Origin: Sporichthya polymorpha DSM 43042
GTDB lineage: Bacteria; Actinomycetota; Actinomycetes; Sporichthyales; Sporichthyaceae
Assembly: GCF_000384115.1 (NCBI RefSeq)
Contig: NZ_KB913029.1
Coordinates: forward strand, 778,907-842,906
Reading direction: 5' to 3'
DNA length: 64,000 nucleotides
Numbering within the stretch: the stretch's first letter is position 1; each line of letters begins with the position of its first letter. This document shows positions 22,936-44,115 of this stretch, one piece after another. Made by a program: the position numbers and the translations under genes. Below the pieces are notes generated by a model, which had not been told where the DNA came from, searched no databases, and was given only the letters and a program-made list of their open reading frames with translations.

Positions 22936-23412
22936 CTACATCCTGGCGGCCGCGTACTTCACGGCGTCACGGATACGCGGGTACGTACCGCAGCGGCAGA
23001 CGTTGCGCAGGGTGTCGAGGTCGGCCTCGGAGATCTTGCGGCCGGACTTCTTAACCCGCTGAATCAGCGCCGTCGCGGCCATGATCTGGCCGGGCTGGCA
23101 GTAACCGCACTGAGCGACGTCGTACTTGATCCAGGCCTCCTGCACCGGGTGCAGGCTGCCCTTCACCGTCTTGGCCAGACCCTCGATCGTGGTGATGCGG
23201 TCCGAGGACTTGATGTCCGAGACCGGCACCGAACACGGGTTGAAGTGCTTGCCGTTCAGGTGCGAGGTACACGCCTGGCAGACCCGGATGCCGCACCCGT
23301 ACTTGGGTCCGGTGACACCGAGCAGGTCGCGGAGCACCCACAGCATGCGGACGTTGCTCTCGGCGTCCACGCTGACCTTCTTGCCGTTCAGGATGAACGT
23401 GTGCTTACTCAT
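22936..23412 (-). CDS. Molybdenum hydroxylase small subunit, [2Fe-2S] (cassette A)
   Basis: A 158-residue CoxS/IorA-type electron-transfer subunit. The plant-type ferredoxin cluster is bound by C40, C45, C48 and C60 (GCGIRVCQACTSH...PC). The second helical domain binds another cluster through C102, C105 (CGYCQPGQ), C139 and C141 (NVCRCGTYPRI). It passes electrons from the molybdopterin centre of the large subunit encoded just upstream. It has no signal of its own, so it should be co-exported with the Tat-bearing large subunit. It is nearly identical in layout to the cassette C small subunit (39393-39869). An AAGGAGGAG ribosome-binding site is present. Confidence 0.92.
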   Translation of the reverse strand: MSKHTFILNGKKVSVDAESNVRMLWVLRDLLGVTGPKYGCGIRVCQACTSHLNGKHFNPCSVPVSDIKSSDRITTIEGLAKTVKGSLHPVQEAWIKYDVAQCGYCQPGQIMAATALIQRVKKSGRKISEADLDTLRNVCRCGTYPRIRDAVKYAAARM

Positions 23413-23439: not shown

Positions 23440-25824
23440 TCAGCGCGCGAAGCGGCGGCCGTTGACGGGTGACTGCGGGATCGGTGGCACCTTGGGCTTC
23501 GCCACGAATCCCAGCGGCTCGTTGAAGTTGACCGGGTTGATCGTCGGGAGCTTGCCCACCGCCCGGCCGTAGGCGATCGCCGCGGCGGCCTGGCCGGCGG
23601 CCACACCGGTCTCGCCGGCGCCACCACCGATCTCACGGCTGTCCGGCATGACGTGGCACTCGAACACGTACGGGACGTTCCACTGCCGGGTGTACCGGTA
23701 GTTGTCCCACGAGCCCTCGAGCGGCAGGCCGTCCTCGATGTGCAGACTCGCCGTCAGGGCCTGGGCGATGCCGTCCATGCAACCGCCCATCATCATCGCC
23801 TGGAAGTTGCGCGGGTTGATGACCCGTCCCGCGTCGACGGCCATGATCGCCTTCGTGACACGCGGACCGGTGTAGGCCTCGCGGATCTTCCGGTTCACCA
23901 TGGCGGGCCGGGCGTCGAGCTCCATGAAGCACGCGACCTTGCACTGGTACTCACTGTGGAGCGCGATCGCCTGCGCGGTGCCCTTCGGCATCGTGCGGCC
24001 CCAGTTGCCGGCCTCGGCGGCCTTGTCGAGAACCGCACGCCAGCCGTCGTTCGCCGCGAAGGAGCGACGGAACTCGTAGTCGTCCATGCCGAACGCGTCG
24101 GCCATCTTCGACACGTGGAGCTCACGCGCCGTCCCGGTGTCGGGCGAGTACACGTTTCGCACCGCGGACGTCGGGAGCGTGTCGTAGGCGAAGATCTCGT
24201 TGAGGAACACCGCGGTCGGGCCGAAGTGGTACGGCACGTCGGTGACGAGCTGGTAGAAGCCCATCGACACCGAGAGGTTGCCGGCCTCCTTGTTGCCGGA
24301 GAAGCCCAGACGCGGGTCCTGCGCGGTCGCCGAACCGGAGATGATCTCGCCGAGTCCGTGCGTCCAGTCGCACGCCGAGGACGCGCTCGACATCGTGAAG
24401 CTCGTGACGCTGTTGCCGTTCTTCGTGGCGCGCACGCGGTTCACCATCATCGGGTGCATACGCCCGTGGCGGTTGTCGTCCGTGCGGTGCCACATCAGCT
24501 TGACGGGCTTGCCGAAGGTCTTCGACGCCTCGACGGCCTCGTAGGACGCGTCCGAGAACAGGTGGCGACCGAACGAGCCACCGCCCGGCGGGCAGTGCAC
24601 GGTCACGGCGTCCTCGGGCAGGTCCAGCATCAGCGCGATCCGCTGCAGCGTGACGATCGGCATCTTGTTCGTGCCCCACACCTCGGCGGAGTCCTTGCGG
24701 ACGTCGGCGATGGCGCAGTTCGTCTCGAGCGGCGAACCACTGCGGTAGTGGAACGTGTAGTCCTCGTCGATGACCTCGTCGGTCGGCGCCGCGGGCGGCA
24801 CGGGCAGGAGGACGGACGCGACCTTCGCGGCCAGCGACTCGTTGTTCTCCTTGTCGACGGTCCCGGCGCCCCAGGTGACCTTGAGCGCGCGGATCGCGTC
24901 AATGCACTGACCGAAGGTGCGCGCACGCACGGCGACGCCACGGGAGATCGCCGCGACGTCGGTGACGCCCGGCATCCCCTTCACGCGCTCGAGGTTGTCG
25001 ATCGACTGCACGGTGCCGTTGATCGTCGGCGGCCGGCACAGCATCGTCGGAAGTGCGTTCGGGACCGCGAGGTCCATCGCGAACTTCTTCTTGCCGGTGA
25101 CCATGTCGACGGCGTCGACGCGGCCCACGCTCTTCCCGACGTACTTGCCGGGCTTGCCCTTGAGCTTGACGTCCAGCGGCTTCGTGACCTTCGAGGCCGC
25201 GAGCTCCGCCAGCGAGCCGTAGGTGGCCCGCTGACCGTCGGGGCCGTGGACGGCGCCGTCGCGGGTCTCGACCGCGGAGACGGGGACTCCCCACTTCTCC
25301 GCCGCCGCCGAGGACAGCGCCGTGCGAGCCGTCGCCGCCATCGTGCGCATCGGCATCCACAGCGAGAAGTGCGAGGTGGAACCACCGGTCAGCTGGTTGA
25401 AGACGAGCTCGGGACGGGCGTCGGAGAGGTAGACCTCCACGTCGTCCATCGACATGTCGAGCTCGTCGGCGATGACCTGCGCGAACGAGGTCGTGATGCC
25501 CTGACCGACCTCCTGGCGAGGCAGCGCGAAGCGCGCCTTGCCCTTGGGCGTCAGCTCGATCTTCAGGTGGTGGTTGGTCGGGAGGCACGAGTCCCGGTAC
25601 GCGTCCAGGAAGTCGTAGTTGGCCGAGAACGTGGGGTTACTCGGGATCGGGGAGGCACCGGCCGCGTGGGCCGTCGACGCTGTGCCTTCCCATGCCATGT
25701 CGGCAGTGACAGCCAGCGTGGTGCCGGCCAGCACGTACCCGACGAATTGGCGCCGCGAGGTGCCCGAAGGCTGTGCGGCAGGCGGTGCAAGCGTGGTCGG
25801 GTCGGGGCTGGGTGTTGGTGACAT
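23440..25824 (-). CDS. Tat-exported molybdopterin-binding hydroxylase large subunit (cassette A)
   Basis: A 794-residue protein of the xanthine dehydrogenase family, IorB-like single-chain type. The Tat signal is SRRQFVGYVLAGTTLAV (R24-R25), ending near AHAAG. Moco-domain hallmarks are PPGGGSFGRHLF, GLGEIISG, PTSAVRNVYSPD, AVDAGRVINP and, near residue 737, GGGAGETG, which carries the catalytic Glu. The PMEP-like loop reads GSPLETN. No FAD subunit accompanies it, so the electron acceptor is probably a membrane or extracytoplasmic carrier. The hydroxylated substrate is unknown, and isoquinoline, aldehyde or N-heterocycle types are all possible. The ATG follows the conserved leader hairpin (25834-25862). 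Confidence 0.92.
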   Translation of the reverse strand: MSPTPSPDPTTLAPPAAQPSGTSRRQFVGYVLAGTTLAVTADMAWEGTASTAHAAGASPIPSNPTFSANYDFLDAYRDSCLPTNHHLKIELTPKGKARFALPRQEVGQGITTSFAQVIADELDMSMDDVEVYLSDARPELVFNQLTGGSTSHFSLWMPMRTMAATARTALSSAAAEKWGVPVSAVETRDGAVHGPDGQRATYGSLAELAASKVTKPLDVKLKGKPGKYVGKSVGRVDAVDMVTGKKKFAMDLAVPNALPTMLCRPPTINGTVQSIDNLERVKGMPGVTDVAAISRGVAVRARTFGQCIDAIRALKVTWGAGTVDKENNESLAAKVASVLLPVPPAAPTDEVIDEDYTFHYRSGSPLETNCAIADVRKDSAEVWGTNKMPIVTLQRIALMLDLPEDAVTVHCPPGGGSFGRHLFSDASYEAVEASKTFGKPVKLMWHRTDDNRHGRMHPMMVNRVRATKNGNSVTSFTMSSASSACDWTHGLGEIISGSATAQDPRLGFSGNKEAGNLSVSMGFYQLVTDVPYHFGPTAVFLNEIFAYDTLPTSAVRNVYSPDTGTARELHVSKMADAFGMDDYEFRRSFAANDGWRAVLDKAAEAGNWGRTMPKGTAQAIALHSEYQCKVACFMELDARPAMVNRKIREAYTGPRVTKAIMAVDAGRVINPRNFQAMMMGGCMDGIAQALTASLHIEDGLPLEGSWDNYRYTRQWNVPYVFECHVMPDSREIGGGAGETGVAAGQAAAAIAYGRAVGKLPTINPVNFNEPLGFVAKPKVPPIPQSPVNGRRFAR

Positions 25825-25833
25825 GAACTGTTT

Positions 25834-25862
25834 TCCCTTCACGCCGGCTCGGGGGAACCGGC
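25834..25862 (-). promoter_or_regulatory. Conserved leader hairpin, cassette A
   Basis: In the mRNA sense: GCCGG, then a C-rich loop (TTCCCCCGAG), CCGGC, then GTGAAGGGA, nine bases before the ATG. It is almost identical to the leaders of cassettes B and C. GAAGGGA is the ribosome-binding site. The loop's TTCCC could pair with GGGAA of that site. It is a candidate translational control element. Confidence 0.6.
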
Positions 25863-26410
25863 TTTCGGGCCGTCGCGGACACGGCGGAAGTTCTGCTCCC
25901 GCCGGGCGACGGGATGGACAACGTGCGGCAGCCTCTTCGCGCAAAGCCTGGGGCGGGCGTCCCGGTCCTGGACGGGTGATCTGGCTGCGCACGGACACGG
26001 GACCTGGTTCGGCCTTCGCTTCCCGTCGAGTGTTCACCGGATCACACGCGAAGATCGCCCGATTTGCCCGTCCGTCGACGAGCGGTCATAGCTTTACGTC
26101 TAATGGTTTTGTGCGTCACGTCATAATCTGACGGAATATCAGATAGGTTTGGGTCGCGAGTTCCGCGGTATCGCGCGAGTCGAATGGCCGCGGGCCCCAG
26201 GCTGCATCGCCATCACCGACGTGGTCCCACCGCGAAATGCCGCAGGAGGGGTCTTGCGGCGGATTTATATCGTGTTACGATGTATACACAACAGCACATC
26301 TCCTCGGGTGCCGGGGGCGGTCATGGACCGCCGACACCCCAGGCCTCCCCCGGCCGAACGCGGGCAGCACGAAGTGCCGCTGCCAGGCGGTCGAGAAGCG
26401 GGGAAGAGGG
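25863..26410. promoter_or_regulatory. Long upstream region of cassette A with palindromes
   Basis: No gene is recognised in these 548 bases. They are AT-richer than the surroundings from 26090 to 26300. Two small palindromes stand out: ATCTGA-7-TCAGAT at 26126-26144 and ATCGT-GTT-ACGAT at 26269-26281. A leftward promoter-like pair, TTGTGT (26291-26286) and TATAAA (26269-26264), has a 16-bp spacer that contains the second palindrome. It would drive cassette A with a leader of over 400 bases. Confidence 0.35.
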
Positions 26411-26650
26411 TCAGCTCGTGAGGTCCAGAGCCCCGAGCTCAAGCAGTGTGGCCGCCTCCTCGGCGCAGGCGCCACACGTATCCAAGTGTCTTCGCATCAC
26501 GACGTCCTCGTACGCGGGATCCGCGGCGACCTGCTCGACGTACGCGCAGATCTGATCGAAGCACTCGTCGCACGACAAGTAGGGGTCCGCGTCGGCCGTG
26601 AGTCCGGCAACGACCTCGGCGAGCGACCGTGGTGGGGGCGGAGCGTTCAT
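26411..26650 (-). CDS. Zinc-binding anti-sigma factor candidate (ZAS type)
   Basis: A 79-residue soluble protein with two metal-binding clusters: C27-x2-C30 and C35 in the middle, and H55-x3-C59-x2-C62 (HLDTCGAC). The latter is the exact HxxxCxxC pattern of zinc-associated anti-sigma factors such as RsrA and ChrR. No membrane segment is seen. Its ATG overlaps the stop of the sigma factor gene by four bases, the usual order for a sigma/anti-sigma pair. The likely role is to bind and inhibit that sigma factor, possibly with redox or metal sensing. Binding is inferred from motif and operon position. Confidence 0.75.
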   Translation of the reverse strand: MNAPPPPRSLAEVVAGLTADADPYLSCDECFDQICAYVEQVAADPAYEDVVMRRHLDTCGACAEEAATLLELGALDLTS

Positions 26651-27402
26651 GCGGTACTCCGGTCGGTGATGGCATCCAGGTGCCCGCAGTCGGCAAGAGC
26701 GGCTCGCAACCGCCGACGGGCGTCGTGCAGGGTCTTGTAGAGCGCGTTGCGGGTGGTGCCCAACCGATCGGCCAGGACGTCGATCGGAACCTCGTCGATG
26801 ACGAGTGCGATCGCGATGCGCCGCTGATGCGGCGTCAGCGCGGTGCGGATCGCCTTCTCCACGGCCCGGGCCAGCTCTGTCGCCTCGGCCAGCTCGGACG
26901 GGGAAGCACTGTGGTCGACCATCCCCACCAGGTCGACGGAGTCGGAGAGCGAGATCTCCTTGTGTCGCCAGGCCTGCTTCCGCACCTCGACCCCGGCCTG
27001 GTAGACCGCGAACTTGTAGGCCCAGGTCGAGAAACGGCTCCGGCCCTCGAAGGTGTCCAGCCGCCGCAGCACGGAGACCGTCGCCTCGTCGGCGGCCTGC
27101 ATCGCCAGATCGGTGAGCTCCTCGGGGCCGGCGTGCGGAAGCATGCCGCGGAGCCGATACACCTGGTGCCGGCTCGCCCGCAGGAGGAGCTCATGGAGTC
27201 GACGCAGGGCGGCATCGCCGTCCGGACCGTCCGCGGTCAGATCGGCTATCCACTTCTCGTCCGACGGGGCGGCGTCGGAGTTTTCCACTACGACCGTTTC
27301 TTCGAGCTGCTCGGGGAGAGATACAGCAGGTATCCACGTTGGTGTCGCCTGGTCCCGAAGTCTTACCCCGAAATTTCGGGCCGTGACCAGGCTCGCGCTC
27401 AC
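26647..27402 (-). CDS. ECF-type sigma-70 family RNA polymerase sigma factor
   Basis: 251 residues from a GTG that overlaps the upstream gene's stop (GTGA). Region 2 is visible as LTDLAMQAADEATVSVLRRLDTFEGRSRFSTWAYKFAVYQ (cited here as short blocks: DEATVSVLRRLDTF, SRFSTWAYKFAVYQAG), the core-binding and -10 recognition helices. Region 4 is LTPHQRRIAIALVID, then IDVLADRLGTTRNALYKTLHDARRRLR, the -35-recognising helix-turn-helix. A longish N-terminal extension (~80 residues) precedes region 2, and a later internal start is possible. It is followed by the ZAS-type protein and preceded by an SBP56-like gene and a membrane-anchored protein in one tight operon. It could direct the neighbouring hydroxylase operons (inference). 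Confidence 0.88.
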   Translation of the reverse strand: MSASLVTARNFGVRLRDQATPTWIPAVSLPEQLEETVVVENSDAAPSDEKWIADLTADGPDGDAALRRLHELLLRASRHQVYRLRGMLPHAGPEELTDLAMQAADEATVSVLRRLDTFEGRSRFSTWAYKFAVYQAGVEVRKQAWRHKEISLSDSVDLVGMVDHSASPSELAEATELARAVEKAIRTALTPHQRRIAIALVIDEVPIDVLADRLGTTRNALYKTLHDARRRLRAALADCGHLDAITDRSTA

Positions 27403-28548: not shown

Positions 28549-30444
28549 TCAGTCGCGGAACGCCGCGTCGGGCACCACGAAGATCATCGAGTGCGGCTTC
28601 GCGTCACCCCAGGGGCCGTGGGGCCACCAGACGCGGTTGAAGTCGACGCACGGTGCGCCGGTGTGTTCGTCCTTGAAGTCGCGGTCCAGTGAGAGCCGGT
28701 GCTGGTCGTCGATCGTCACCAGGCAGACCTTGTGGTCACCGTCCCAGCCGGTGCGGGCGACGAAGTAGTTCGAGTACGCCAGCCGGCGCGGGTCACGCGT
28801 CTCGGAGAACTTCCCGTCCGGGCCCTGGACGAAGTGGTCCAGCGCGCCCCAGTGCGGACCGCCGCTCGTCGGGTCGTCGACGGGCAGCACCGAGTGCACG
28901 GTGGGGCAGTCCTTCTCGGCGCCGCCGTTGAACGCCTCGGCCTCGGTGTCGATCTCGCACTTGTAGTCACTGCCCGCAGCGAGCAGCTTGCGGATGTCGA
29001 GCGAGAGAACGATGCCCGGCGTGCCCGGGTCGGAGGTGTTCGCGGTGTGGGCGCGGCGGCCCATCGTCACCGTGTAGAGGAACCGGTCGTCGGGCGAGGT
29101 CTGCAGCCAGCCGCTGCCCTCGCACCCGCTGTCGGCGAAGCCGTGGTGCCCGGCACCGCTGCCGGCCATGCCGGCCTTCGCGCGCTCGTTCATGGCGCGG
29201 TAGACGGCGGCCTGGTCGTAGACCTCGCGCCACTTCGGATCCTTCACGGTGATGTCGGGCGTGTAGTAGATCGCCCCGGCGCACATCGAGGAGGCGAAGG
29301 CGCCCTTGTGGCCCGGCCGGTTCGTGACCGTGACCTCCATGAAGCCCATGTTCTCGGCGTCCGAGGGCTTGGTCTTCCGCGGTCCGTCCGGCAGCCGCGA
29401 GACCGACACGACCTTCGGGTTCTTCCGGTCGCTGATGTCCCAGATCCGCACCGTGCGGCGGACCATGTTCACGTCGACCGGCGGCAGCGCCGGCAGCGGG
29501 TCCTCGATGATCACCGACGGCTGTGCGAAGTCACCGGTGATCATCCGGTTCAGGTCCTCGCGGAGCTGGATGCCGTGCGGGTTCGCGCACGAGCGCGGCT
29601 CGACCGGCGGCGTCATGGCGCACTCGTGCGGCACCGGCTCCATCCCGGGGGTCGCGGCGGGTGACTCGGAGATCGTCCGTCCGTTCCGGTCCAGCAGCAC
29701 GACCGAACCCGGGGCACCGCCGAAGCCGTTGCCCATCCGCGTCTCACCGTTGGTGTAGGTACAGGGACCGGGCAGGTTCGGGCCGCCCATCCACGTGCCG
29801 TAGGCCGTGCCGTCGCTCATCGTCCAGAACGCGTCGGGCACGGAGCCGCAGGGCGTGTCCGTCGGCAGGTTGACGCCGCGCAGCGTCAGCACCGGCAGGT
29901 TCGTGGCGTCGAGCGCGAACGCGACGTCGCTGTACAGGCCGCCGGCGAAGATGGTGTCGCCGCGGTGCCACTCGTACTGCATGTGGTGCGGCTCGTTCTC
30001 CGCGAGCGGGACCGTGACGGTGTTGACGACCTTGCCGTAGGTCGGCGCGCCCTTCTGCACGTCGATCACCGCGAGGAAGTCCGGCCCGACCGCGGGGGTG
30101 TGCGGACGGCCGAGCGAATCCATCGCCTCGCCGGCCGCGCCCGGCAGGTTGTGGAGCTTGCCGCCGGCCCCGGACTCGAGGTCGGCGGCGTTGACGTCGC
30201 CGGCCCAGACGACGAGGTACTCGTGCGCTGCCGCCGCGTCCCGGTCCACCCCGGGGAAGTTTCTGAGGTGGTTGGTGATCGTGAAGTCCTGGCCGTCGTC
30301 CGAGGTCCACGTCGAGGTGATCGTGGTGACCGGCGCCGCGGCCACCGGCGTGGGGGCGGCGACCGCGACGACGGAGCAGGCGAGAGCCAGCACCGAGAAG
30401 AGGCAGGTGGAGGGCCGGGGACGTGGCGAGGGCAGCAACCGCAT
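28549..30444 (-). CDS. Secreted SBP56/methanethiol-oxidase-like beta-propeller protein
   Basis: A 631-residue exported protein with a Sec signal ending near VAAAPVTT. It resembles, at a distance, selenium-binding protein 56: FLAVIDVQKGAPTYGKVVNTV and ENEPHHMQYEW correspond to the family's VDVDPxSPxYxxVIHxLxMPNxxDELHHSGW region. VLLDRNGRTI, RIWDISDRKNPKVVSV and SPDDRFLYTVTMG are further propeller blades. The HH pair could be copper-binding as in methanethiol oxidases. Multiple cysteines suggest disulfides outside the cytoplasm. It leads the operon with the membrane protein, sigma factor and ZAS protein, and diverges from hydroxylase cassette B. A truncated paralogue opens the window next to a multicopper oxidase. 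Enzymatic activity is inferred only. Confidence 0.7.
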   Translation of the reverse strand: MRLLPSPRPRPSTCLFSVLALACSVVAVAAPTPVAAAPVTTITSTWTSDDGQDFTITNHLRNFPGVDRDAAAAHEYLVVWAGDVNAADLESGAGGKLHNLPGAAGEAMDSLGRPHTPAVGPDFLAVIDVQKGAPTYGKVVNTVTVPLAENEPHHMQYEWHRGDTIFAGGLYSDVAFALDATNLPVLTLRGVNLPTDTPCGSVPDAFWTMSDGTAYGTWMGGPNLPGPCTYTNGETRMGNGFGGAPGSVVLLDRNGRTISESPAATPGMEPVPHECAMTPPVEPRSCANPHGIQLREDLNRMITGDFAQPSVIIEDPLPALPPVDVNMVRRTVRIWDISDRKNPKVVSVSRLPDGPRKTKPSDAENMGFMEVTVTNRPGHKGAFASSMCAGAIYYTPDITVKDPKWREVYDQAAVYRAMNERAKAGMAGSGAGHHGFADSGCEGSGWLQTSPDDRFLYTVTMGRRAHTANTSDPGTPGIVLSLDIRKLLAAGSDYKCEIDTEAEAFNGGAEKDCPTVHSVLPVDDPTSGGPHWGALDHFVQGPDGKFSETRDPRRLAYSNYFVARTGWDGDHKVCLVTIDDQHRLSLDRDFKDEHTGAPCVDFNRVWWPHGPWGDAKPHSMIFVVPDAAFRD

Positions 30445-30833
30445 GGGGATGTTGTCCGTTTCTCTTCCGCGCGACGACTCTTCGCTCCTCTGGCGGAAGG
30501 AGGCGACTCACCCTCGTCAGTGCCGTCACGACCTTTGGTTCTTACCGGACGAACCCTGACGTGCCGTCACAGAACTTGGTGCGATCGGACAAGTTGAACT
30601 GACCGGACATTTTCTCAGTAAGACCCTCGTGGTCCGCGTCACTTACTCCGATGTGCACACATTCCGCCCGCTGTGTACAACACCGCCCCACGCCAGGGCC
30701 TCCGCAGTTCTGGCACCCATCCGCCATGGGCGCAGGTGGTGAGTACTCCCACCCGCCATGCTCTTCAGCCGAAGGGCATTGACCTGAAGTTGATCGTGAA
30801 CGCCCCCGCCCGCTGACGATCGACGCCTCTTGA
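30445..30833. promoter_or_regulatory. Divergent promoter region of the SBP56-like/sigma operon and cassette B
   Basis: 389 bases without a gene, AT-richer than average. A CCGGACA element occurs at 30603-30609. Two TGTGNACA-like stretches (TGTGCACACA near 30652 and TGTGTACAACA near 30672) might be operator half-sites. I cannot place a confident -10/-35 pair. Confidence 0.35.
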
Positions 30834-30863
30834 GCCGGTCTCCCCCGAGCCGGCGCGAAAGGA
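30834..30863 (+). promoter_or_regulatory. Conserved leader hairpin, cassette B
   Basis: GCCGG, the loop TCTCCCCCGAG, CCGGC and then GCGAAAGGA, nine bases before the cassette B ATG. It differs from the cassette C leader at only two positions (C for T and A for G near the ribosome-binding site), although the genes themselves have diverged far more. Confidence 0.6.
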
Positions 30864-30872
30864 AGCACGCTC

Positions 30873-33248
30873 ATGACGCAAACTGCAGACGCTTTCGGCA
30901 CTACCGGGCCTGAGGAGACCGCGAACGGCCTGAGCCGTCGACGCTTCGTCGGCTATGTCATGGCCGGGACAACGCTGACCGTGGCTGGTCAGTACGTGGT
31001 CGACTCGCGCCCGGCCACCGCGGCCGGCGGGGCCACCCCCATCCTGAGCAACGACCTGCCGTCGGACCACTACGACTTCATGGACCTCATGCGCGACCAG
31101 ACCCGCGCCGTGACGCCACTGCTCACGCTCGAGGTCTCTGAGGACGGCCGGGTCCGCTTCGACATGCCGCGCTGCGAGGTCGGACAGGGTGTCGAGACCG
31201 GGGTCGCGCAGATCATCGCCGACCAGATGGAGATCCCGTACGAGCAGGTCGACATCACCCAGTCCAAGGCCCGGGCGGACCTGTTCGCCGCCCAGCTCAC
31301 CGGCGGGTCCTCGTCGCTGTACTCGCTGTGGGAGCCGCTGCGTGAGCTCAGCGAGCTCGCGCGGCAGCGCCTCGTCGGCGCTGCGGCCCAGAAGTGGAAC
31401 GTCTCGCCCGACGTCCTGCGCACCAAGGACGGCTTCGTCTTCGGCCCCGACGGCCAGCGGGCGCCCTACGGCTCCCTCGCCATCGGCTCGCCCCAGAACG
31501 AGCTCGTCGGTGCGCTGCTCGACGCCGCGATCGGCCCGCCCAAGGGCGGCGTGATCGGCAAGTCGGTGCCGCGCAAGGACATCAAGGCCATCGTCACCGG
31601 CGCCAAGAAGTTCGCGATGGACCTGGACATCCCGAACGCGCTCCCGACGATGCTCGCGCGGCCCCCGACATTCAACGGCCGGGTCGGCAAGATCAACAAT
31701 CTGGAGCAGATCAAGGGGATGCCGGGCGTCACCGACGTCGCGGTCATCGAGTCCACGCACCGTTCCTCGGCCGTGGCCATCCGCGCGAAGACGTTCGGTC
31801 AGTGCGTCGACGCGATTCGCGCGCTCAAGGTCGACTGGGAGGTCGGCGACACCGGCAAGGTGAACTCCGAGGGCCTGATGGCCGAGGTCCAGAAGGTGCG
31901 GCTCCCGATGGAGCCGGCACTGCCCGGGTCCGAGGTGATCGAGGGCGAGTACACCTTCCAGTTCCGCAGCAACTCTCCGCTCGAGACGAACAGCGCGGTC
32001 GCCGACGTGACCGACGACAAGTGCGAGGTGTGGGCGGCCTCGAAGATCCCCGGCACCCCGCTGGGCATGCTTTCCGAGGAGCTGGGCCTGCCCCTCGACA
32101 AGGTCGTCATCAACGTCGTGTACGCGGGCGGTTCGTTCGGCCGCAAGCTGCACGGCGACCACATCCTGGAAGCGGCGCGGGCGTCGAAGGCGTTCGGCAA
32201 GCCGGTCCGCCTGATGTGGCACCGCACCGATGACATCCGCCACGGTCGTCAGCACCCCGGAGCGATCTCGCACGTGCGGGCCACCAAGGTCGGCAACAGC
32301 GTCACCAGCTTCACCCAGTGGCACGCGTCGGGGGCCTGCGACTTCACCCACAGTCTCGGCGACGTCATCTCCGGGCGCGCGGTGAAGAAGGAGCCCGGTC
32401 GCTATGCGGGCAATACCGGCGTCACCGACTACTTCTACCAGGTCGTCACCTCGGTCCCGTACAACTTCGGGCCGACCAAGACCGCCCTCACCGAGGCGTT
32501 CCAGTACGACTACCTGCCCACATCCGCGGTGCGCAACGTGTACTCCCCGGACGTCGCGGTGGCCCGTGAGCTCCTCGTCGAGGACCTCGCCGAGTCGTTC
32601 GGCATGGACGGGTACGAGTTCCGCCGTGCGTTCGCGAAGAGCGAGCACATGAAGGCCGCGCTCGACGCGGTCGCCGAGCGCGGCAACTGGGGCCGGAAGA
32701 TGCCGGCCGGCATGGCCCAGGCCATCGCCATCCACAGCGAGTACAAGTGCAACCTCGCGTGCCTGATGGAGATCGACAACCGGCCGGAGACGACACGTCG
32801 GCGGACCCGCCGCGGCTGGCCGGGCCCGCGCATCACCAAGGCGATCTTCGCCGGCGCGATGGGCGTCCCGGTCAACCCGGACCAGTGCAAGGCCCAGTTC
32901 ATGGGCGGCATGATCGACGGCATCGCGGCCGCCTTCACCGAGGCCCTGCACTGGGAGGAAGGCCTCCCGATCGAGGGCGGCTGGGACGACTACATGTTCA
33001 CCCGGCAGTGGATGTCGCCTCTCGAGTTCGAGGCCATCGTCATCGACGACGGCAGCCTGGTGCCCTCGGGCACCGGCGAGACCGGCAACGGCGCCGGCTA
33101 CGCCGCTGCGGCCATCGCGCTGCAGAAGGTCCTCGGCCGCAAGATCACCGAGCTCCCGGTCTACTTCCGGGACACCCCGAGCCAGTTCACGCACATTCCC
33201 AAGTCACCGTCGGTGCCGCAGAGCCCGACGCGCGTCCTGCCCAGCTGA
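30873..33248 (+). CDS. Tat-exported molybdopterin-binding hydroxylase large subunit (cassette B)
   Basis: A 791-residue IorB-like protein. The Tat signal is SRRRFVGYVMAGTTLTV. Moco domain features are VVYAGGSFGRKLHG, SLGDVISG, PTSAVRNVYSPD, MGVPVNPDQ and GTGETGNGAGYAAAAIA, with the catalytic Glu near residue 735. The substrate loop reads NSPLETN. It is the most divergent of the three large subunits: MRDQTRAVTPLLTLEV replaces the YRDxCLPTNHxLKIE block of A and C, and the stretch RRRTRRGWPGPR carries an extra basic run. It is followed at 27 bases by its [2Fe-2S] subunit. As with the others, no FAD subunit and no maturation factor genes are present. Substrate unknown. Confidence 0.92.
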   Translation: MTQTADAFGTTGPEETANGLSRRRFVGYVMAGTTLTVAGQYVVDSRPATAAGGATPILSNDLPSDHYDFMDLMRDQTRAVTPLLTLEVSEDGRVRFDMPRCEVGQGVETGVAQIIADQMEIPYEQVDITQSKARADLFAAQLTGGSSSLYSLWEPLRELSELARQRLVGAAAQKWNVSPDVLRTKDGFVFGPDGQRAPYGSLAIGSPQNELVGALLDAAIGPPKGGVIGKSVPRKDIKAIVTGAKKFAMDLDIPNALPTMLARPPTFNGRVGKINNLEQIKGMPGVTDVAVIESTHRSSAVAIRAKTFGQCVDAIRALKVDWEVGDTGKVNSEGLMAEVQKVRLPMEPALPGSEVIEGEYTFQFRSNSPLETNSAVADVTDDKCEVWAASKIPGTPLGMLSEELGLPLDKVVINVVYAGGSFGRKLHGDHILEAARASKAFGKPVRLMWHRTDDIRHGRQHPGAISHVRATKVGNSVTSFTQWHASGACDFTHSLGDVISGRAVKKEPGRYAGNTGVTDYFYQVVTSVPYNFGPTKTALTEAFQYDYLPTSAVRNVYSPDVAVARELLVEDLAESFGMDGYEFRRAFAKSEHMKAALDAVAERGNWGRKMPAGMAQAIAIHSEYKCNLACLMEIDNRPETTRRRTRRGWPGPRITKAIFAGAMGVPVNPDQCKAQFMGGMIDGIAAAFTEALHWEEGLPIEGGWDDYMFTRQWMSPLEFEAIVIDDGSLVPSGTGETGNGAGYAAAAIALQKVLGRKITELPVYFRDTPSQFTHIPKSPSVPQSPTRVLPS

Positions 33249-33275: not shown

Positions 33276-33767
33276 GTGTCCAAGCACTCGTTCATCCTGA
33301 ACGGCAAGAAGGTCAGCGTTGACATCGAGGACGACGTCCGCCTGCTGTGGGTTCTGCGTGACGTCCTCAAGGTCCGCGGCCCCAAGTACGGCTGCGGCAT
33401 CAATCAGTGCAAGGCCTGCACGTCGCACATCAACGGCAAGGCCTTCACGCCCTGCTCGGTGTCGGTGAAGTACATCAAGCCGACCGACCGGATCACGACC
33501 ATCGAGGGTCTGGCCGACACGGCCGGCAAGAAGAAGGGCCCGAACGGACTGCACCCCGTGCAGGAGGCGTGGATCAAGAACTCGGTCCCGCAGTGCGGGT
33601 ACTGCCAGCCCGGTCAGATCATGGCGGCCGTCGACCTCATCGAGAAGGCCAAGAAGAAGGGTCGGAAGGTCACCGACGCCGACCTGGACAACCTGCGCAA
33701 CGTCTGTCGATGCAACACGTACCCGCGTATCCGGGAGGCCATCAAGGAGGCCTCACGAAACATGTAA
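33276..33767 (+). CDS. Molybdenum hydroxylase small subunit, [2Fe-2S] (cassette B)
   Basis: 163 residues, GTG start with AAAGGAG upstream. The two [2Fe-2S] sites are as in cassette A: GCGINQCKACTSHI...PC and CGYCQPGQ...NVCRCNTYPRI. Compared with A and C it carries a six-residue insertion (ADTAGKKKGPNG region) before the second domain, and Lys-rich exchanges. It has no signal peptide, so it should be exported bound to the Tat-bearing large subunit. A strong terminator follows about 75 bases downstream. Confidence 0.92.
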   Translation: MSKHSFILNGKKVSVDIEDDVRLLWVLRDVLKVRGPKYGCGINQCKACTSHINGKAFTPCSVSVKYIKPTDRITTIEGLADTAGKKKGPNGLHPVQEAWIKNSVPQCGYCQPGQIMAAVDLIEKAKKKGRKVTDADLDNLRNVCRCNTYPRIREAIKEASRNM

Positions 33768-36051: not shown

Positions 36052-37527
36052 TCAGAAGCAGACGTACTTGTTGCCCCGCGGGGCCTCCCAGCCGCGCTCG
36101 GTGAGCAGGGCGTAGTAGACGCAGTTGTGCTCGCGGGCCGCCTTCTGGCCGGGCGAGAAGGTGATCGGCGGGGCGAGGCCGTCGAGGGTCTCGTTCTTCA
36201 CCCTGCCCAGCCCGGTCAGGACGTCCGCGGAGGTGATCGGCCCGGCTCGGGCGGCGTCCCCGAGGTTCCCGATCGCCGCGGCGAACAGCTTCGCGGCGGC
36301 CCACGAGGCGAGGGAGACGGCGTCGCGCGGCGTCCCCGGCGCGTACCGCTCGAGGATCGCGGCGTACTCCTTCTGGCCCGCGTTCTCGGTCAGCATCCAG
36401 GGCGCGTTGGGCGTCGAGACCGAGAGGGTGTTCTGCCGCATCCCGGGGTCGGTCGCCTGCGCCGCGCTGACGAGCATCGCGCCGGAGATGAGCTGCGGAC
36501 GGAAGCCGAGGGCGGCGCACGAGCGCACGACCCGCGTGATCGTGGACCCGTCGACGCACATCCCGAACGACTGCACGCCGGCGTTCTTGGCGTTCTGGCA
36601 CTGGGCCGTGAAGTCGGTCTGCGTGAGCGAGACCGGCGAGCTGTAGACGAGTTCGGCGCCCATCTGCTCGGCGTACTTCGACACGACATCCTGCACTCCG
36701 GCGCAGAGCGGCGTCTCGACGCAGTAGAGCATCCCGATCTTGGTGAACCCCGCGTCGACGGCCTGGCGCAGCGCGCCGGCGACGGCCCCGTTGAGGCCGG
36801 CGCCCTGGGGGAACAGCAGCGGGTGGGAGTACCAGTCCGGCATGACGGAGTCGCCGCCGACGACGGGGAGCTGGTACCGCTCGATGGCCGACCGCATCGC
36901 CGGGATCGACAACGGCGCCCACAGCGACACCAGCGCCTGCACCTTGCGCTGCGTGGCGAGGGTGCCGACCGCGGCCGCGCCGCGGCTGGGATCCATGCCG
37001 TCGTCCATCACGTAGGCCGTGACGGGGTGACAGGCGAGCCCGCCGGTGGCGTTGACGTGCTTGACCCAGAGGGCGAGCGCGGTGCGCCCGCTGGCCGTGA
37101 TCGGCCCCATGACCCCGCTGAAGCTGCCGATCTGGCCGATCGCCAGCGGAGCTTCCCGACCCGTGCAGGCCGCCGGCCGGGCCGCGGTCGGCGCGGAGCC
37201 CCGCGCCTCCGCCGGCACCGCGCCCTCGACGCGAGCCGGAGCGGCCGCCGGCGCCGCGGCCGCACCGTCACCCGGAACCGACCCGCCCGGCACCGACCCG
37301 CCCGGTGCCGGCGCGGCCGCCGGCCCGGCCGGGTCACCGGCCGACGGCACGACCGGGGCGGAGCGGGCCGCGCGCAGCTGCTCCAGCGTCCCGGGCGCGA
37401 GTTCGACCGCGCCGGTCTCGACCCCGGCGCGCACCTCGTCCGAGCTCATCCGCGTCCCGCACCCGGACACGAGCAGCCCAACAGCAGCCGCGATCGCGGG
37501 CACGGCGAGGCGGAGCCGGGCGGACAT
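36052..37527 (-). CDS. Substrate-binding lipoprotein of branched-chain amino-acid type (copy 2)
   Basis: A 491-residue paralogue of the protein at 3854-5374. Lipobox LVSGC, then TRMSSDEV, then an Ala/Pro/Gly-rich linker with GGSVPGGSVPGDG repeats, then the Liv-type domain from LAIGQIGSFSGVMGP through WVKHVNATGGLACHPV, CVETPLCAGV and TDFTAQCQNAKNAG. Cysteines in the domain match copy 1 (CVEAAICG, YTAECQALKAAG), so these two are closest relatives. No transporter genes adjoin. ATG 37527 is used. The frame extends to 37563. Ligand unknown. Confidence 0.88.
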   Translation of the reverse strand: MSARLRLAVPAIAAAVGLLVSGCGTRMSSDEVRAGVETGAVELAPGTLEQLRAARSAPVVPSAGDPAGPAAAPAPGGSVPGGSVPGDGAAAAPAAAPARVEGAVPAEARGSAPTAARPAACTGREAPLAIGQIGSFSGVMGPITASGRTALALWVKHVNATGGLACHPVTAYVMDDGMDPSRGAAAVGTLATQRKVQALVSLWAPLSIPAMRSAIERYQLPVVGGDSVMPDWYSHPLLFPQGAGLNGAVAGALRQAVDAGFTKIGMLYCVETPLCAGVQDVVSKYAEQMGAELVYSSPVSLTQTDFTAQCQNAKNAGVQSFGMCVDGSTITRVVRSCAALGFRPQLISGAMLVSAAQATDPGMRQNTLSVSTPNAPWMLTENAGQKEYAAILERYAPGTPRDAVSLASWAAAKLFAAAIGNLGDAARAGPITSADVLTGLGRVKNETLDGLAPPITFSPGQKAAREHNCVYYALLTERGWEAPRGNKYVCF

Positions 37528-37611
37528 GGCGCCGAGTATCACCCGGGCCGGTCCGCGCACCAACCCCCGACCTGACGGACGATGGGGCGTTTGGCCGGGA
37601 CCACAAAGAAA

Positions 37612-39392: not shown

Positions 39393-39869
39393 CTACATCT
39401 TGCTGGCGGCGTACTTGATCGCCTCGCGGATGCGGGGGTAGGTGCCGCAGCGGCAGACGTTGCGCAGGGTGTCGAGGTCGGCCTCGGAGATCTTGCGGCC
39501 GGACTTCTTCACGCGGTTGATCAGCGCCGTCGCGGCCATGATCTGGCCGGGCTGGCAGTAACCGCACTGGGCGACGTCGTACTTGATCCAGGCTTCCTGG
39601 ACCGGGTGCAGCTTGCCCTTGGCGGTCTTGGCCAGACCCTCGATAGTCGTGATCCGGTCCGAGGAACGGATGTCCGACACCGGGACCGAGCAGGGGTTGA
39701 AGTGCTTGCCGTTCAGGTGAGACGTGCAGGCCTGGCAGACACGGATGCCACAGCCGTACTTCGGGCCGGTGACGCCGAGGACGTCACGCAGAACCCACAG
39801 CATGCGGACGTTGTTCTCGATGTCGACGCTGACCTTCTTGCCGTTCAGGACGAACGAGTGCTTGGGCAC
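39393..39869 (-). CDS. Molybdenum hydroxylase small subunit, [2Fe-2S] (cassette C)
   Basis: 158 residues, GTG start, AAAGGGA upstream. It has the same two-cluster layout as cassette A (YGCGIRVCQACTSH...PC; CGYCQPGQ; NVCRCGTYPRI). It differs from the A subunit at only a minority of positions, for example AVKYAAARM there and AIKYAASKM here at the end. A and C are recent duplicates relative to B. No signal peptide, so export with its large subunit is expected. Confidence 0.92.
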   Translation of the reverse strand: MPKHSFVLNGKKVSVDIENNVRMLWVLRDVLGVTGPKYGCGIRVCQACTSHLNGKHFNPCSVPVSDIRSSDRITTIEGLAKTAKGKLHPVQEAWIKYDVAQCGYCQPGQIMAATALINRVKKSGRKISEADLDTLRNVCRCGTYPRIREAIKYAASKM

Positions 39870-39908: not shown

Positions 39909-42284
39909 TCAGCGCGCGAAGCGACGGCCGTTGACGGGCGACTGCGGAATGGGCGGGACGGTCGGCTTGACGACGAAGCCCAGCGGCTCCCGGAAGTTGA
40001 CCGGGATCTCGGTGATGTCCTTGCCGGTGGCCTTGGCGTAGGCACAGGCCGCCGCACCCTGCGCGGCCGCGACGCCGGCCTCGCCGACGCCACCGCCGAT
40101 CTCACGGTTGGCCTCCATGACGTGCGCCTCGAAGACGTACGGGACGTTCCACTGCCGGGTGTACCGGTAGTTGTCCCACGAGGCCTCCTGGACGGTCCCG
40201 TCCTTAATGTGGCAGGCCGCGGTGAGGGCCTGCGCGATGCCGTCCATGGCACCACCCATGAGCTGCGCCTTGATGTTGCGCGGGTTGATCGGGTTGCCGA
40301 CGTCGATCGCCATGAACGCCTTGGTGATGCGCGGACCGGTGTAGGCCTCACGGATCTTGCGGTTGACCATCGCCGGGCGGCAGTCGATCTCCATCAGCGT
40401 CGCCACGTAGGCCTGGTACTCCTCGTGGAACGCGATGGCCTGCGCCGTGCCCTCGGGCATGGTGCGACCCCAGTTGCCCATCTCGGCAACCTTGTCGAGG
40501 ACCGCACGCATGCGGTCGTTCTTGAGGAACGCGCGACGGAACTCGTAACCGTCCATGCCGAAGTTGTCAGCGAGCTTGTCGACGAACAGCTCACGGGAAA
40601 CCGCGACGTCCGGCGAGTACACGTTGCGGACCGCGGAGGTCGGCAGCGTGTCGTACGAGAAGACCTCGTTGAGGTACAGCGCGGTCGGGCCGAAGTTGTA
40701 CGGCACGGTCGTCACGAGCTGGTAGAAGGCCACGGCCACCGAGAGGTTGCCGAGCTCCTTGTTGCCCGTGAAGCCCAGACGCGGGTCCTGGGCCGCGGCG
40801 GACCCGGAGATGATCTCGCCGAGACCGTGGGTCCAGTCGCACGCGCTCGAGGCGCTGCTCATCGCGAAGCTGGTGATGCTGCCACCCTGCTTCGTCGCGC
40901 GAACGCGGTTGACCATCATCGGGTGCATGCGGCCGTGGCGGGCGTCGTCGGCGCGGTGCCACATCAGCTTGACCGGCTTGCCGAACAGCGCCGAGGCCTC
41001 GACGGCCTCGTAGATCGCGTCGGAGAACAGCTTGCGGCCGAACGACCCACCGGCCGGCGGGCAGTGCAGCGTGACGTTGTCCTCGGGGAGGTTCAGCATC
41101 ATCGCGATGCGCTGGAGCGTCACGATCGGCATGTTCGCCGCGCCCCAGACCTCGGCCCGGTCCGTGCGCACGTCCGCCACCGCGGTGTTGGGCTCCATCG
41201 GAGAACCCGAGCGGTAGTGGCAGACGTAGTCCTCCTGGATCACCTCGTCGGTCGGGAGGGTCGGCGCCAGCGGAAGCAGGACCGAGGTGACCTTCTCGGT
41301 GAGGGTGTCGTTGTTCTCGTTGTCGACGGTGCCACCACCCCAGGTGACCTTCAGTGCGCGAATGGCGTCGATGCACTGACCGAACGTGCGGGCACGGACC
41401 GCAACACCGCGCGAGATCGCGCCGACGTCCGTGACGCCCGGCATCGCCTTGACCTTCTCGAGGTTCTCGATCGACTGCACGGTGCCGTTGATCGTCGGCG
41501 GCCGGCAGATCATCGTCGGCAGGGCGTTCGGCACCGGCAGGTCGCCGGCGAACTTCTTCGCACCGGTGACCATGTCGAGCGCGTCGACGCGGCCGACGTC
41601 CTTGCCCACGTACTTGCCCGACGTGCTCTTGAGCTTGACGTCGAGCGGCTTCGTGATCGTCGAGGCCGCGAGCGCCGAGAGCGCGCCGTAGGTGGCCTTC
41701 TGACCGTCCGGGCCGTAGACGGCACCGTCGCGGGTCGTGACCGCGGAGACCGGGACGCCCCACTTCTCGGCGGCGGCCACGGCGAGAGCGGTGCGCGCCG
41801 TGGCGGCCATCGTCTTGATGGGCATCCACAGCGAGAAGTGCGCCGTCGAACCACCCGTCAGCTGGTTGAAGATCAGCTCCGGGCGGGCGTCGGCGAGGGT
41901 GACCTTCACGTCCTCGATGCGCATGTCGAGCTCGTCGGCGATGACCTGCGCGAACGAGGTGGTGATGCCCTGACCGGCCTCCTGGCGCGGGAGGGCGAAG
42001 ACCGCCTTGCCCTGCGACGTGATCTCGATCTTCAGGTTGTGGTTGGTCGGGAGGCAGGCGTCGCGGTACGCGTCGAGGAAGTCGTACGCGTCCGAGAGCG
42101 TCGGGTTGCTCGGGATGGGGGTGGCGCCCGCAGCGCGAGCAGCGCTCGGAGTGAGCGTCAGATCGGCAGTGACAGCCAGCGTCGTGCCGGCGAGCACGTA
42201 CCCGACGAACTGACGGCGGGTGGTGCCGGTCGGGGCGATCGCGTCGATCGCAGAAGCCACATCCGGGCGGGGAGATGCAGACAT
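39909..42284 (-). CDS. Tat-exported molybdopterin-binding hydroxylase large subunit (cassette C)
   Basis: A 791-residue IorB-like protein with Tat signal TRRQFVGYVLAGTTLAV (R23-R24) cleaved near RAAGATP. The Moco-domain features PPAGGSFGRKLF, GLGEIISG, PTSAVRNVYSPD, AIDVGNPINP and GGVGEAGVAAAQ are present. The substrate loop here is GSPMEPN, the form common in related enzymes, whereas A and B have PLETN, so the active-site entrance differs. The catalytic Glu sits in GEAG instead of GETG. It has its own promoter (42471-42499) and the conserved leader hairpin before the ATG. Confidence 0.92.
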   Translation of the reverse strand: MSASPRPDVASAIDAIAPTGTTRRQFVGYVLAGTTLAVTADLTLTPSAARAAGATPIPSNPTLSDAYDFLDAYRDACLPTNHNLKIEITSQGKAVFALPRQEAGQGITTSFAQVIADELDMRIEDVKVTLADARPELIFNQLTGGSTAHFSLWMPIKTMAATARTALAVAAAEKWGVPVSAVTTRDGAVYGPDGQKATYGALSALAASTITKPLDVKLKSTSGKYVGKDVGRVDALDMVTGAKKFAGDLPVPNALPTMICRPPTINGTVQSIENLEKVKAMPGVTDVGAISRGVAVRARTFGQCIDAIRALKVTWGGGTVDNENNDTLTEKVTSVLLPLAPTLPTDEVIQEDYVCHYRSGSPMEPNTAVADVRTDRAEVWGAANMPIVTLQRIAMMLNLPEDNVTLHCPPAGGSFGRKLFSDAIYEAVEASALFGKPVKLMWHRADDARHGRMHPMMVNRVRATKQGGSITSFAMSSASSACDWTHGLGEIISGSAAAQDPRLGFTGNKELGNLSVAVAFYQLVTTVPYNFGPTALYLNEVFSYDTLPTSAVRNVYSPDVAVSRELFVDKLADNFGMDGYEFRRAFLKNDRMRAVLDKVAEMGNWGRTMPEGTAQAIAFHEEYQAYVATLMEIDCRPAMVNRKIREAYTGPRITKAFMAIDVGNPINPRNIKAQLMGGAMDGIAQALTAACHIKDGTVQEASWDNYRYTRQWNVPYVFEAHVMEANREIGGGVGEAGVAAAQGAAACAYAKATGKDITEIPVNFREPLGFVVKPTVPPIPQSPVNGRRFAR

Positions 42285-42292
42285 GGAACCGT

Positions 42293-42322
42293 TCCCTTCA
42301 CGCCGGCTCGGGGGAGACCGGC
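42293..42322 (-). promoter_or_regulatory. Conserved leader hairpin, cassette C
   Basis: In the mRNA sense: GCCGG, loop TCTCCCCCGAG, CCGGC, then GTGAAGGGA, eight bases before the ATG. It is the same element as at 25834-25862 and 30834-30863. Confidence 0.6.
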
Positions 42323-42470
42323 ATCGGGTTTCGTCGCGGGGCAGGGGGCAGTGCCCCTCGTCGCCCTCGACGACGAGATGGAGGGGGCGTGCGCCCGAGA
42401 GCTCGGCGACCGGAGGACGTCACTCCGGCCGGCGCAGCGCGCACTCGGGCTGTTTTAAGATGCGCTCTGT

Positions 42471-42603: not shown

Positions 42604-44115
42604 TCAGCCGCTGGCTCCCGGCAGCGTCCCGGTGCAGCGCAGGGCCTTCCCCGGGAAGCGGGAGTACTTCGCGTTCTTGATCACGACGACGCCGTAGCAG
42701 AGCTGCCGCTTCATCGGCTGACCCTTGACCATCGTGATCGGGAACGTCATCCCGTCGAGGTTGTCGTTCTTCACCGCGTACACGCCGGCCTCGACGTCGG
42801 CGGTCGTCACCTGGCCGGCCGGGAAGTTCTTCCCGATCGACTCGAAGAACCGGCCGAGGATCCAGCCGTTCGTGTTGCCGCCGGTCGGTGGCGCGCCCGG
42901 CGCGTACTGCGCGAACGCCTGGGTCACCTTCGCGATGCCGGGCACGGACGTGTCCGTCCAGGGCGCCATCTTCGAGGCGATGATCATGCCGTCCGCATTG
43001 GGGTCAGTCGGCAGACTGGAGAGCGCGAGCAGGTCGGCGGTGCCGAAGATCGGGCGGTAGTTCTGCCGCGCGCAGTCGCCGGCGAACCGACGGAGGCTGG
43101 CGGTGTCGAGCGCGAGCATGATGACCTCGGCGCCGCCCTGTTTCGCCGACAGGCACTGCGCGGTGTAGTCCGGTTGCGTCAGCGACGGGCGGCCGCGCGC
43201 GACGAGTTCGAACCCGACGGCCTTGAGCGCCTCGGGGTTCGACCAGCGCTGGTCGAAGTTGTCGCACAGACCGAAGTCGCTGCAGGCGAACTCGGCGAAC
43301 TTCTTCTTGCCCAGCGGACGCGCGACGTCGCCGAGCGCGAGCAGGATCGAGTCCGCGTTGACCTTGCCGGTCGGGGTCGCCGTCAGCACGTAGGGGTTGT
43401 TGTAGGCGGTCTCCAACCCACCCTCGGTTCCGAGCGTGAAGATCTTCTTCGAGTCCAGGTACTTGTTGTTGCCGTTGGGCGAGAAGCCGAGCGTCGCGTA
43501 GAGGAACGCAACCGCGCCCTTCTGCTCGACGAACTGCTGCTCGATCGAGTTGAACCGCGCGGGGTCGCCGCCGTCGTCGCCGACAAGGACCTCGACCGGG
43601 TGGCCGGCGACGCCGCCGCGGGCGTTGATCCACTGCATCCACACGCGGATGCCGGTGATGGTGTCCTTCACCAGCGCACCCACCGGGCCGGTGAACGTGC
43701 CCACAGCGCCGACGCGGATGACCGGACCGGTGGCGGGACCGGACGACTTGCCGCTGCTGCCGCTCGCCTTGCTGCCGCCCGACGCTGCGGTCTGCGCGTT
43801 GGACTTGGTGCCGCCCGCGGTGTTCGCCACCGCGGTCGTGGCGTTCGTCGTCGTGGCGGGACCGGTGTCGACCGCCGCGGGGTTCGCGGCCGCGGCCGGG
43901 TCGACGGCACCGGGCACAGCAGCGACCGCGCCGGTGGCGTCGGGAACGACGGCGGCGGCCGCGTCGGGGTTGGCGACCTGGACGGCCTGGCCGACGCCGG
44001 CGGCACGTTCGATCGCCTCGTCGCTGACACGGGTTCCTCCACACCCCGTCAGCAGAACGGCGAACGCGGTGATCGACGCCGCGACGGCGCTGCTCCGATG
44101 GCGGTGGCTGGGCAT
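42604..44115 (-). CDS. Substrate-binding lipoprotein of branched-chain amino-acid type (copy 3)
   Basis: A 503-residue Liv-type binding protein. Lipobox LLTGC, then GGTRVSDEAIERAAG (the same post-lipobox signature as copies 1 and 2), a ~100-residue Ala/Thr/Ser/Gly linker, then RVGAVGTFTGPVGALV and WMQWINARGGVAGHPV. It is more distant from copies 1 and 2 than they are from each other. GAGGAG lies eight bases before the ATG, and a short hairpin (CCGAACCG with its complement, 44134-44160) precedes it. No ABC permease or ATPase is adjacent. Ligand unknown. Confidence 0.88.
   Translation of the reverse strand: MPSHRHRSSAVAASITAFAVLLTGCGGTRVSDEAIERAAGVGQAVQVANPDAAAAVVPDATGAVAAVPGAVDPAAAANPAAVDTGPATTTNATTAVANTAGGTKSNAQTAASGGSKASGSSGKSSGPATGPVIRVGAVGTFTGPVGALVKDTITGIRVWMQWINARGGVAGHPVEVLVGDDGGDPARFNSIEQQFVEQKGAVAFLYATLGFSPNGNNKYLDSKKIFTLGTEGGLETAYNNPYVLTATPTGKVNADSILLALGDVARPLGKKKFAEFACSDFGLCDNFDQRWSNPEALKAVGFELVARGRPSLTQPDYTAQCLSAKQGGAEVIMLALDTASLRRFAGDCARQNYRPIFGTADLLALSSLPTDPNADGMIIASKMAPWTDTSVPGIAKVTQAFAQYAPGAPPTGGNTNGWILGRFFESIGKNFPAGQVTTADVEAGVYAVKNDNLDGMTFPITMVKGQPMKRQLCYGVVVIKNAKYSRFPGKALRCTGTLPGASG

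Follow-up and report, generated by a model that had tools for sequence, protein, structure and literature searches.

Translational riboswitches of the preQ1-I type are small H-type pseudoknots in which a short hairpin is followed directly by the ribosome-binding site (SD) and which have an A-rich tail, while the 6C RNA motif of actinobacteria carries a run of C's in its hairpin loop. The Moco RNA, which has up to five paired elements, a conserved multistem junction and a GNRA tetraloop, takes the ribosome-binding site into its structure in some examples (PMC2408646). We analyzed a leader that recurs before molybdenum-hydroxylase operons in the window, a 64,000-nt stretch of Sporichthya polymorpha DSM 43042. 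No Rfam family matched the window at the gathering threshold or nine leader loci at E values up to 5; the Moco riboswitch (RF01055) gave no match in the window or at the nine loci under these same thresholds, bearing out the earlier note, which had recognized no known riboswitch, the Moco motif included. Literature searches found no work on Sporichthya and molybdopterin, and nothing related on Sporichthya and riboswitches.

A hairpin adjoining the ribosome-binding site of IorB-like genes

The window holds three operons whose large subunits (genes A, B and C) are Tat-type IorB-like molybdopterin subunits of 791–794 amino acids. Each of the three genes is preceded by GCCGG, 9–12 nt and CCGGC, a hairpin that we call P2, followed directly by the SD GAA(G/A)GGA.

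22936–23412, minus strand: small [2Fe-2S] subunit, downstream of gene A
23440–25824, minus strand: gene A, large subunit of an IorB-like molybdenum hydroxylase, Tat-type N-terminus, 794 aa
25834–25840, minus strand: SD of gene A, GAAGGGA, directly 3′ of P2
25843–25862, minus strand: P2 of leader A, GCCGG-TTC-CCCC-GAG-CCGGC
30834–30854, plus strand: P2 of leader B, GCCGG-T-CTC-CCCC-GAG-CCGGC
30857–30863, plus strand: SD of gene B, GAAAGGA
30873–33248, plus strand: gene B, IorB-like subunit, 791 aa, grouping with sister-genus genes
33276–33767, plus strand: small [2Fe-2S] subunit, downstream of gene B
39393–39869, minus strand: small [2Fe-2S] subunit, downstream of gene C
39909–42284, minus strand: gene C, IorB-like subunit, 791 aa
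42293–42299, minus strand: SD of gene C, GAAGGGA
42302–42322, minus strand: P2 of leader C, GCCGG-T-CTC-CCCC-GAG-CCGGC

We located all three of the near-identical hairpin-and-SD copies that had been described, at the expected positions 8–9 bases before the ATG (gaps of 9, 9 and 8 bases for A, B and C, respectively). The 21-nt P2 hairpin is the same in B and C, while that of A is one loop-region base shorter. As RNA, the A form (GCCGG UUC CCCC GAG CCGGC) has eight pairs including one G-U, and the B/C form (GCCGG U CUC CCCC GAG CCGGC) has eight pairs and one bulged U.

Several neighboring features were recorded. An ECF-type sigma factor gene (26647–27300, minus strand) is the immediate upstream neighbor of gene A, shares its strand and is a possible regulator of the cluster; we rejected a shared ECF-type promoter, as the pattern matches stand at inconsistent distances. 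A protein encoded between operons A and B (28549–30444, minus strand) weakly matches SBP56/methanethiol oxidase, below curated cut-offs. Two Peripla_BP_6 substrate-binding proteins (36052–37563 and 42604–44115, both minus strand) are encoded near the hydroxylase operons and possibly serve substrate uptake. Farther upstream, about 260 nt before genes A and D (D being a fourth IorB-like gene of the same genome, described below), a shared block reads ACCGCTCGTCGA (L095 at −262, L131 at −267); it resembles ACCGCTCAGCGATG in the sister-genus leader L129 and is a possible promoter or operator element.

Distribution of the element and age of the operons

We scanned the genome (5.5 Mb, one contig) for the 21-mer in its A or B/C form, allowing up to two mismatches. 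A fourth exact copy of P2 was found ahead of the IorB-like gene D (G000:C1:1296692). The recurrence of P2 before IorB-like genes is not due to chance, because the sites with zero mismatches are the four IorB-like leaders A–D and every other genomic site needs two mismatches. Two further Sporichthya genomes contributed seven more copies, every one before an IorB-like gene, and the matches of a covariance model were exactly these 11 leaders in three Sporichthya genomes (11 of 11 before IorB-like genes). In the searched genomes, P2 is thus constant in position, sequence and spacing to the SD, and it is tied exclusively to IorB-like genes. Other matches to the stem and SD were considered as further regulon members and rejected: those read (seven of nine queried) sit within long open frames, and all except one have no nearby start codon.

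Outside the genus, the covariance model found no match at an E value of 0.001 in 394 Actinomycetes genomes, a search run with strict filters that may lose weak matches. The leaders of 25 distant actinobacterial IorB homologues (L100–L124) were read and hold no such hairpin, and neither does a fifth, more distant IorB-like homologue of the same genome (G000:C1:1202828). In the sister genus, two of four IorB-like genes (L129 and L099) have retained the outer stem and its distance from the SD, although the loop differs. The L129 leader reads GCCGG UGU UCUCG ACA U CCGGC GCGAAGGGG; that of L099 has GCGCCGG and CCGGCGC around a 32-nt loop, then GAAGGG, so that the stem adjoins the SD. The hairpin of L128 is degenerate and that of L098 is absent. 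When the Sporichthya-only model was applied to six further IorB-like loci of this bacterial family (the sister-genus loci and the distant homologue of the same genome), the L129 leader came out on top (22.5 bits, E = 0.006). The element extends beyond the three operons, and in diverged form beyond the genus; on the 25 homologues read and the 394 genomes searched, we rejected the idea of a general element of actinobacterial IorB genes. Nearly all IorB-like genes of Sporichthya and its close relatives begin with this hairpin, which is probably a shared translation-control element.

We then compared the age of the operons with the conservation of the 30 nt that comprise P2 and the SD. In a maximum-likelihood tree, gene B falls in one group with those of the sister genus (100/100), and A/C/D and E stand outside it. 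Its protein is 52–54% identical to those of A/C/D, and their fourfold-degenerate sites agree at 0.55–0.58, near the level of the most distant pairs and hence near saturation. Operons A, B and C are not the recent duplicates that the earlier note had supposed, and B and A/C/D diverged before the two genera split. The leaders are nonetheless better conserved than the genes, as had been claimed: P2 and the SD of B match those of A/C/D at 27–28 of 30 positions (0.90–0.93), compared to 0.67–0.68 for the coding sequence and to chance-level agreement in the 80 nt upstream (0.47–0.52 against a random baseline of 0.51–0.56). Moreover, P2 and the SD of B are nearer to the paralogues (0.93) than to the sister-genus relative L129 (0.72), whereas the coding sequence reverses this order (0.67 and 0.74, respectively).

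The 30 nt have therefore been either kept by selection or homogenized among paralogues within the genome: they are near-identical where the upstream DNA is at chance level and fourfold sites are near saturation, and in B they are nearer to the paralogues than to L129. Residual homology without function, or gene conversion among the paralogues, could be expected of one gene family in one genome and of an element confined to one bacterial family. However, operons that are not recent duplicates make plain leftover homology unlikely, the split of B from A/C/D predates that of the genera, the adjacent DNA has drifted to chance level with fourfold sites near saturation, and a conversion tract limited to the hairpin and SD would itself be odd. 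We consider this explanation very unlikely.

Folding, covariation and the nature of the hairpin

Each Sporichthya leader A–D contains a second hairpin, P1, upstream of P2 with 6–9 nt between them. The corresponding features of the window are as follows.

25832–25912, minus strand: leader element A (P1, linker, P2, SD); covariance model R1, 87.0 bits (a training sequence); RNAfold z = −4.1
25906–25912 with 25870–25876, minus strand: P1 of leader A, CCGUCGC/GCGACGG; linker at 25863–25869
30758–30779, plus strand: candidate hairpin P0 of leader B, ATGCTCTTC-AGCC-GAAGGGCAT, by eye and RNAfold
30789–30824, plus strand: P1 of leader B, GTTGATCGT (30789–30797) with ACGATCGAC (30816–30824); P = 0.007 against shuffles
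42291–42376, minus strand: leader element C (P1, linker, P2, SD); covariance model R1, 86.4 bits (a training sequence); RNAfold z = −3.4

As RNA, P1 reads GUUGAUCGU/ACGAUCGAC in leader B, UCGUCGU/GCGACGA in leader C (DNA TCGTCGT/GCGACGA) and CUCGUCGC/GCGACGAG in leader D, with GCGAUGAG in D2. A hairpin similar to the candidate P0 is present in leaders D and E and absent from A and C. By eye, leader C (42291–42376, minus strand) could form a different hairpin in place of P1, in which CTCGTCG pairs with CGACGAG close by and TCGAGGG is the loop.

RNAalifold recovered P1 and P2 unaided from 11 leaders, and one P1 pair changes between U-A and C-G. Across nine leaders, 97% of cells pair, a value that none of 500 shuffles reached and that compares to 25–49% in slid controls; in P1, one pair shows a two-sided exchange and several show wobbles. 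RNAfold z-scores of leaders A–D lie between −2.6 and −4.1, and leaders E, F and G show no folding excess by the same measure. Taken alone, P1 exceeds chance expectation in GC-rich sequence only moderately (P = 0.007–0.2 for A–D), and in E and the sister genus it is not significant. The outer stem of P2 is invariant within Sporichthya, with no compensatory change. Across genera its inner pairs change together (UUC/GAG, CUC/GAG and UGU/ACA), with the outer stem and its distance from the SD kept, in a comparison that covers few independent lineages. Predicted folding and partial covariation support the existence of P1 and the reading of P2 as an RNA hairpin.

The same observations bear on whether the conserved unit might be DNA, with the dyad GCCGG-N9-12-CCGGC located downstream of the promoter and bound by one transcription regulator common to the operons. 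Such an operator would suit a stem sequence that is invariant in Sporichthya and common to paralogues of one function, and the invariant outer stem keeps this explanation in contention. Yet its half-site spacing is not fixed (9, 10, 11, 12 and, in L099, about 32 nt), its arms contain a bulge or a G-U pair, and the element keeps a set distance from the SD and has a second hairpin beside it. Because loop lengths vary, the arms are bulged or hold G-U pairs, the inner pairs change together and the distance to the SD is fixed, we prefer an RNA hairpin to a dimer operator, which we regard as quite unlikely.

A short upstream frame, MPVSPEPA*, spans P2, ends at the SD and might couple its translation to that of the main gene. 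It was found in C, C2, D and D2 and in no others: A and B have no such frame, an insertion breaks it in D3, and the ATG of E and L129 simply shares the reading frame of the gene. We set the peptide aside as highly improbable.

Access to the ribosome-binding site and a proposed mechanism

We asked how the RNA hairpin might act on the SD. The earlier note had proposed that (T)TCCC of the loop might pair with GGGA of the SD as a pseudoknot, a proposal that the comparison across copies does not support. Watson-Crick complementarity between loop and SD is 5 bp in A, 4 bp in C and D, and 3 bp in B and E, the SD of B differs without a compensating loop change, and the C-rich loop is gone in L129 and L128. 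Such a pseudoknot would also need the three inner P2 pairs to be opened, and we rejected it.

RNAfold instead predicts pairs that enclose P2, between the linker's CCC (A and C) or CCU (B and D) and the SD's GGG or AGG. With 40 nt of coding sequence appended to the leaders, the predicted ensembles leave the G's of the SD unpaired with a probability of 0.02–0.34; in leader D, with the coding sequence included, the best single structure pairs the SD elsewhere. Masking by three linker pairs is weak, and it may be ordinary in such GC-rich DNA. Purine-rich SDs readily find partners in any stretch of pyrimidines.

The leader element is real, conserved and lineage-restricted, and it most likely regulates translation in cis. 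Our best reading, to which we lend roughly even credence, is that of a cis-regulatory leader RNA, restricted to this lineage, which masks the SD and answers a shared trans-factor. Assuming that the whole element is transcribed, it would be a 5′ leader RNA of about 80–85 nt (P1, a linker of 6–9 nt, P2 and the SD) that the Sporichthya operons for IorB-like molybdenum hydroxylases have in common and that part of the sister genus has in diverged form. Pairing of the linker's CC(C/U) with the G's of the SD, closed off by P2, would lower the ribosome's access. One trans-factor for all the paralogues, whether protein, small RNA or metabolite, would recognize the near-invariant loop or stem of P2 and relieve or strengthen this masking, so that all copies would be set together at translation. 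That paralogue leaders stay alike while those of sister-genus relatives diverge suggests one shared trans-acting recognizer.

A simpler possibility is a passive 5′ leader, in which P1 and P2 stabilize the mRNA's 5′ end or fix a basal translation rate and nothing is sensed. The high stability of the leader, the position of P2 beside the SD, the lack of a match to any known aptamer and the loss of the loop in the sister genus are all compatible with it. However, a generic stabilizer needs no near-invariant 30-nt sequence across paralogues that are saturated elsewhere, and it would not require leaders closer to paralogues than to sister-genus relatives. We judge the passive leader to be unlikely, though less so than the operator.

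If the regulatory RNA reading holds, the element offers a way to learn how several paralogous Tat-type molybdenum hydroxylases are jointly controlled in an actinobacterial lineage that has received little study, and what their substrates are; it would also add to Rfam a structured leader that is absent there, and its 11 copies form a defined test set. A further and rather doubtful step is that it represents a new family-restricted class of riboregulator, either a riboswitch or the target of a protein or small RNA, that coordinates translation of the paralogous exported molybdenum hydroxylases in Sporichthyaceae.

Compared to the described systems, the IorB leader shares single features with each. 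Like the Moco riboswitch, it precedes genes of Moco-using enzymes, but it consists of two hairpins in a row with no junction in the RNAalifold consensus. As in the preQ1-I type, the P2 hairpin stands directly before the SD, but there is no conserved pairing of loop and SD, no A-rich tail and no Rfam match. Its P2 loop carries a C run like that of 6C RNA, but as a single C-rich loop within an mRNA leader, for which the Rfam scan gave no match. Finally, it belongs to no known family of SD-masking leader hairpins, whether protein-, small-RNA- or temperature-controlled, and is limited to the IorB-like operons of Sporichthyaceae; as in those leaders, its hairpin and linker may pair with the SD before a shared set of genes.
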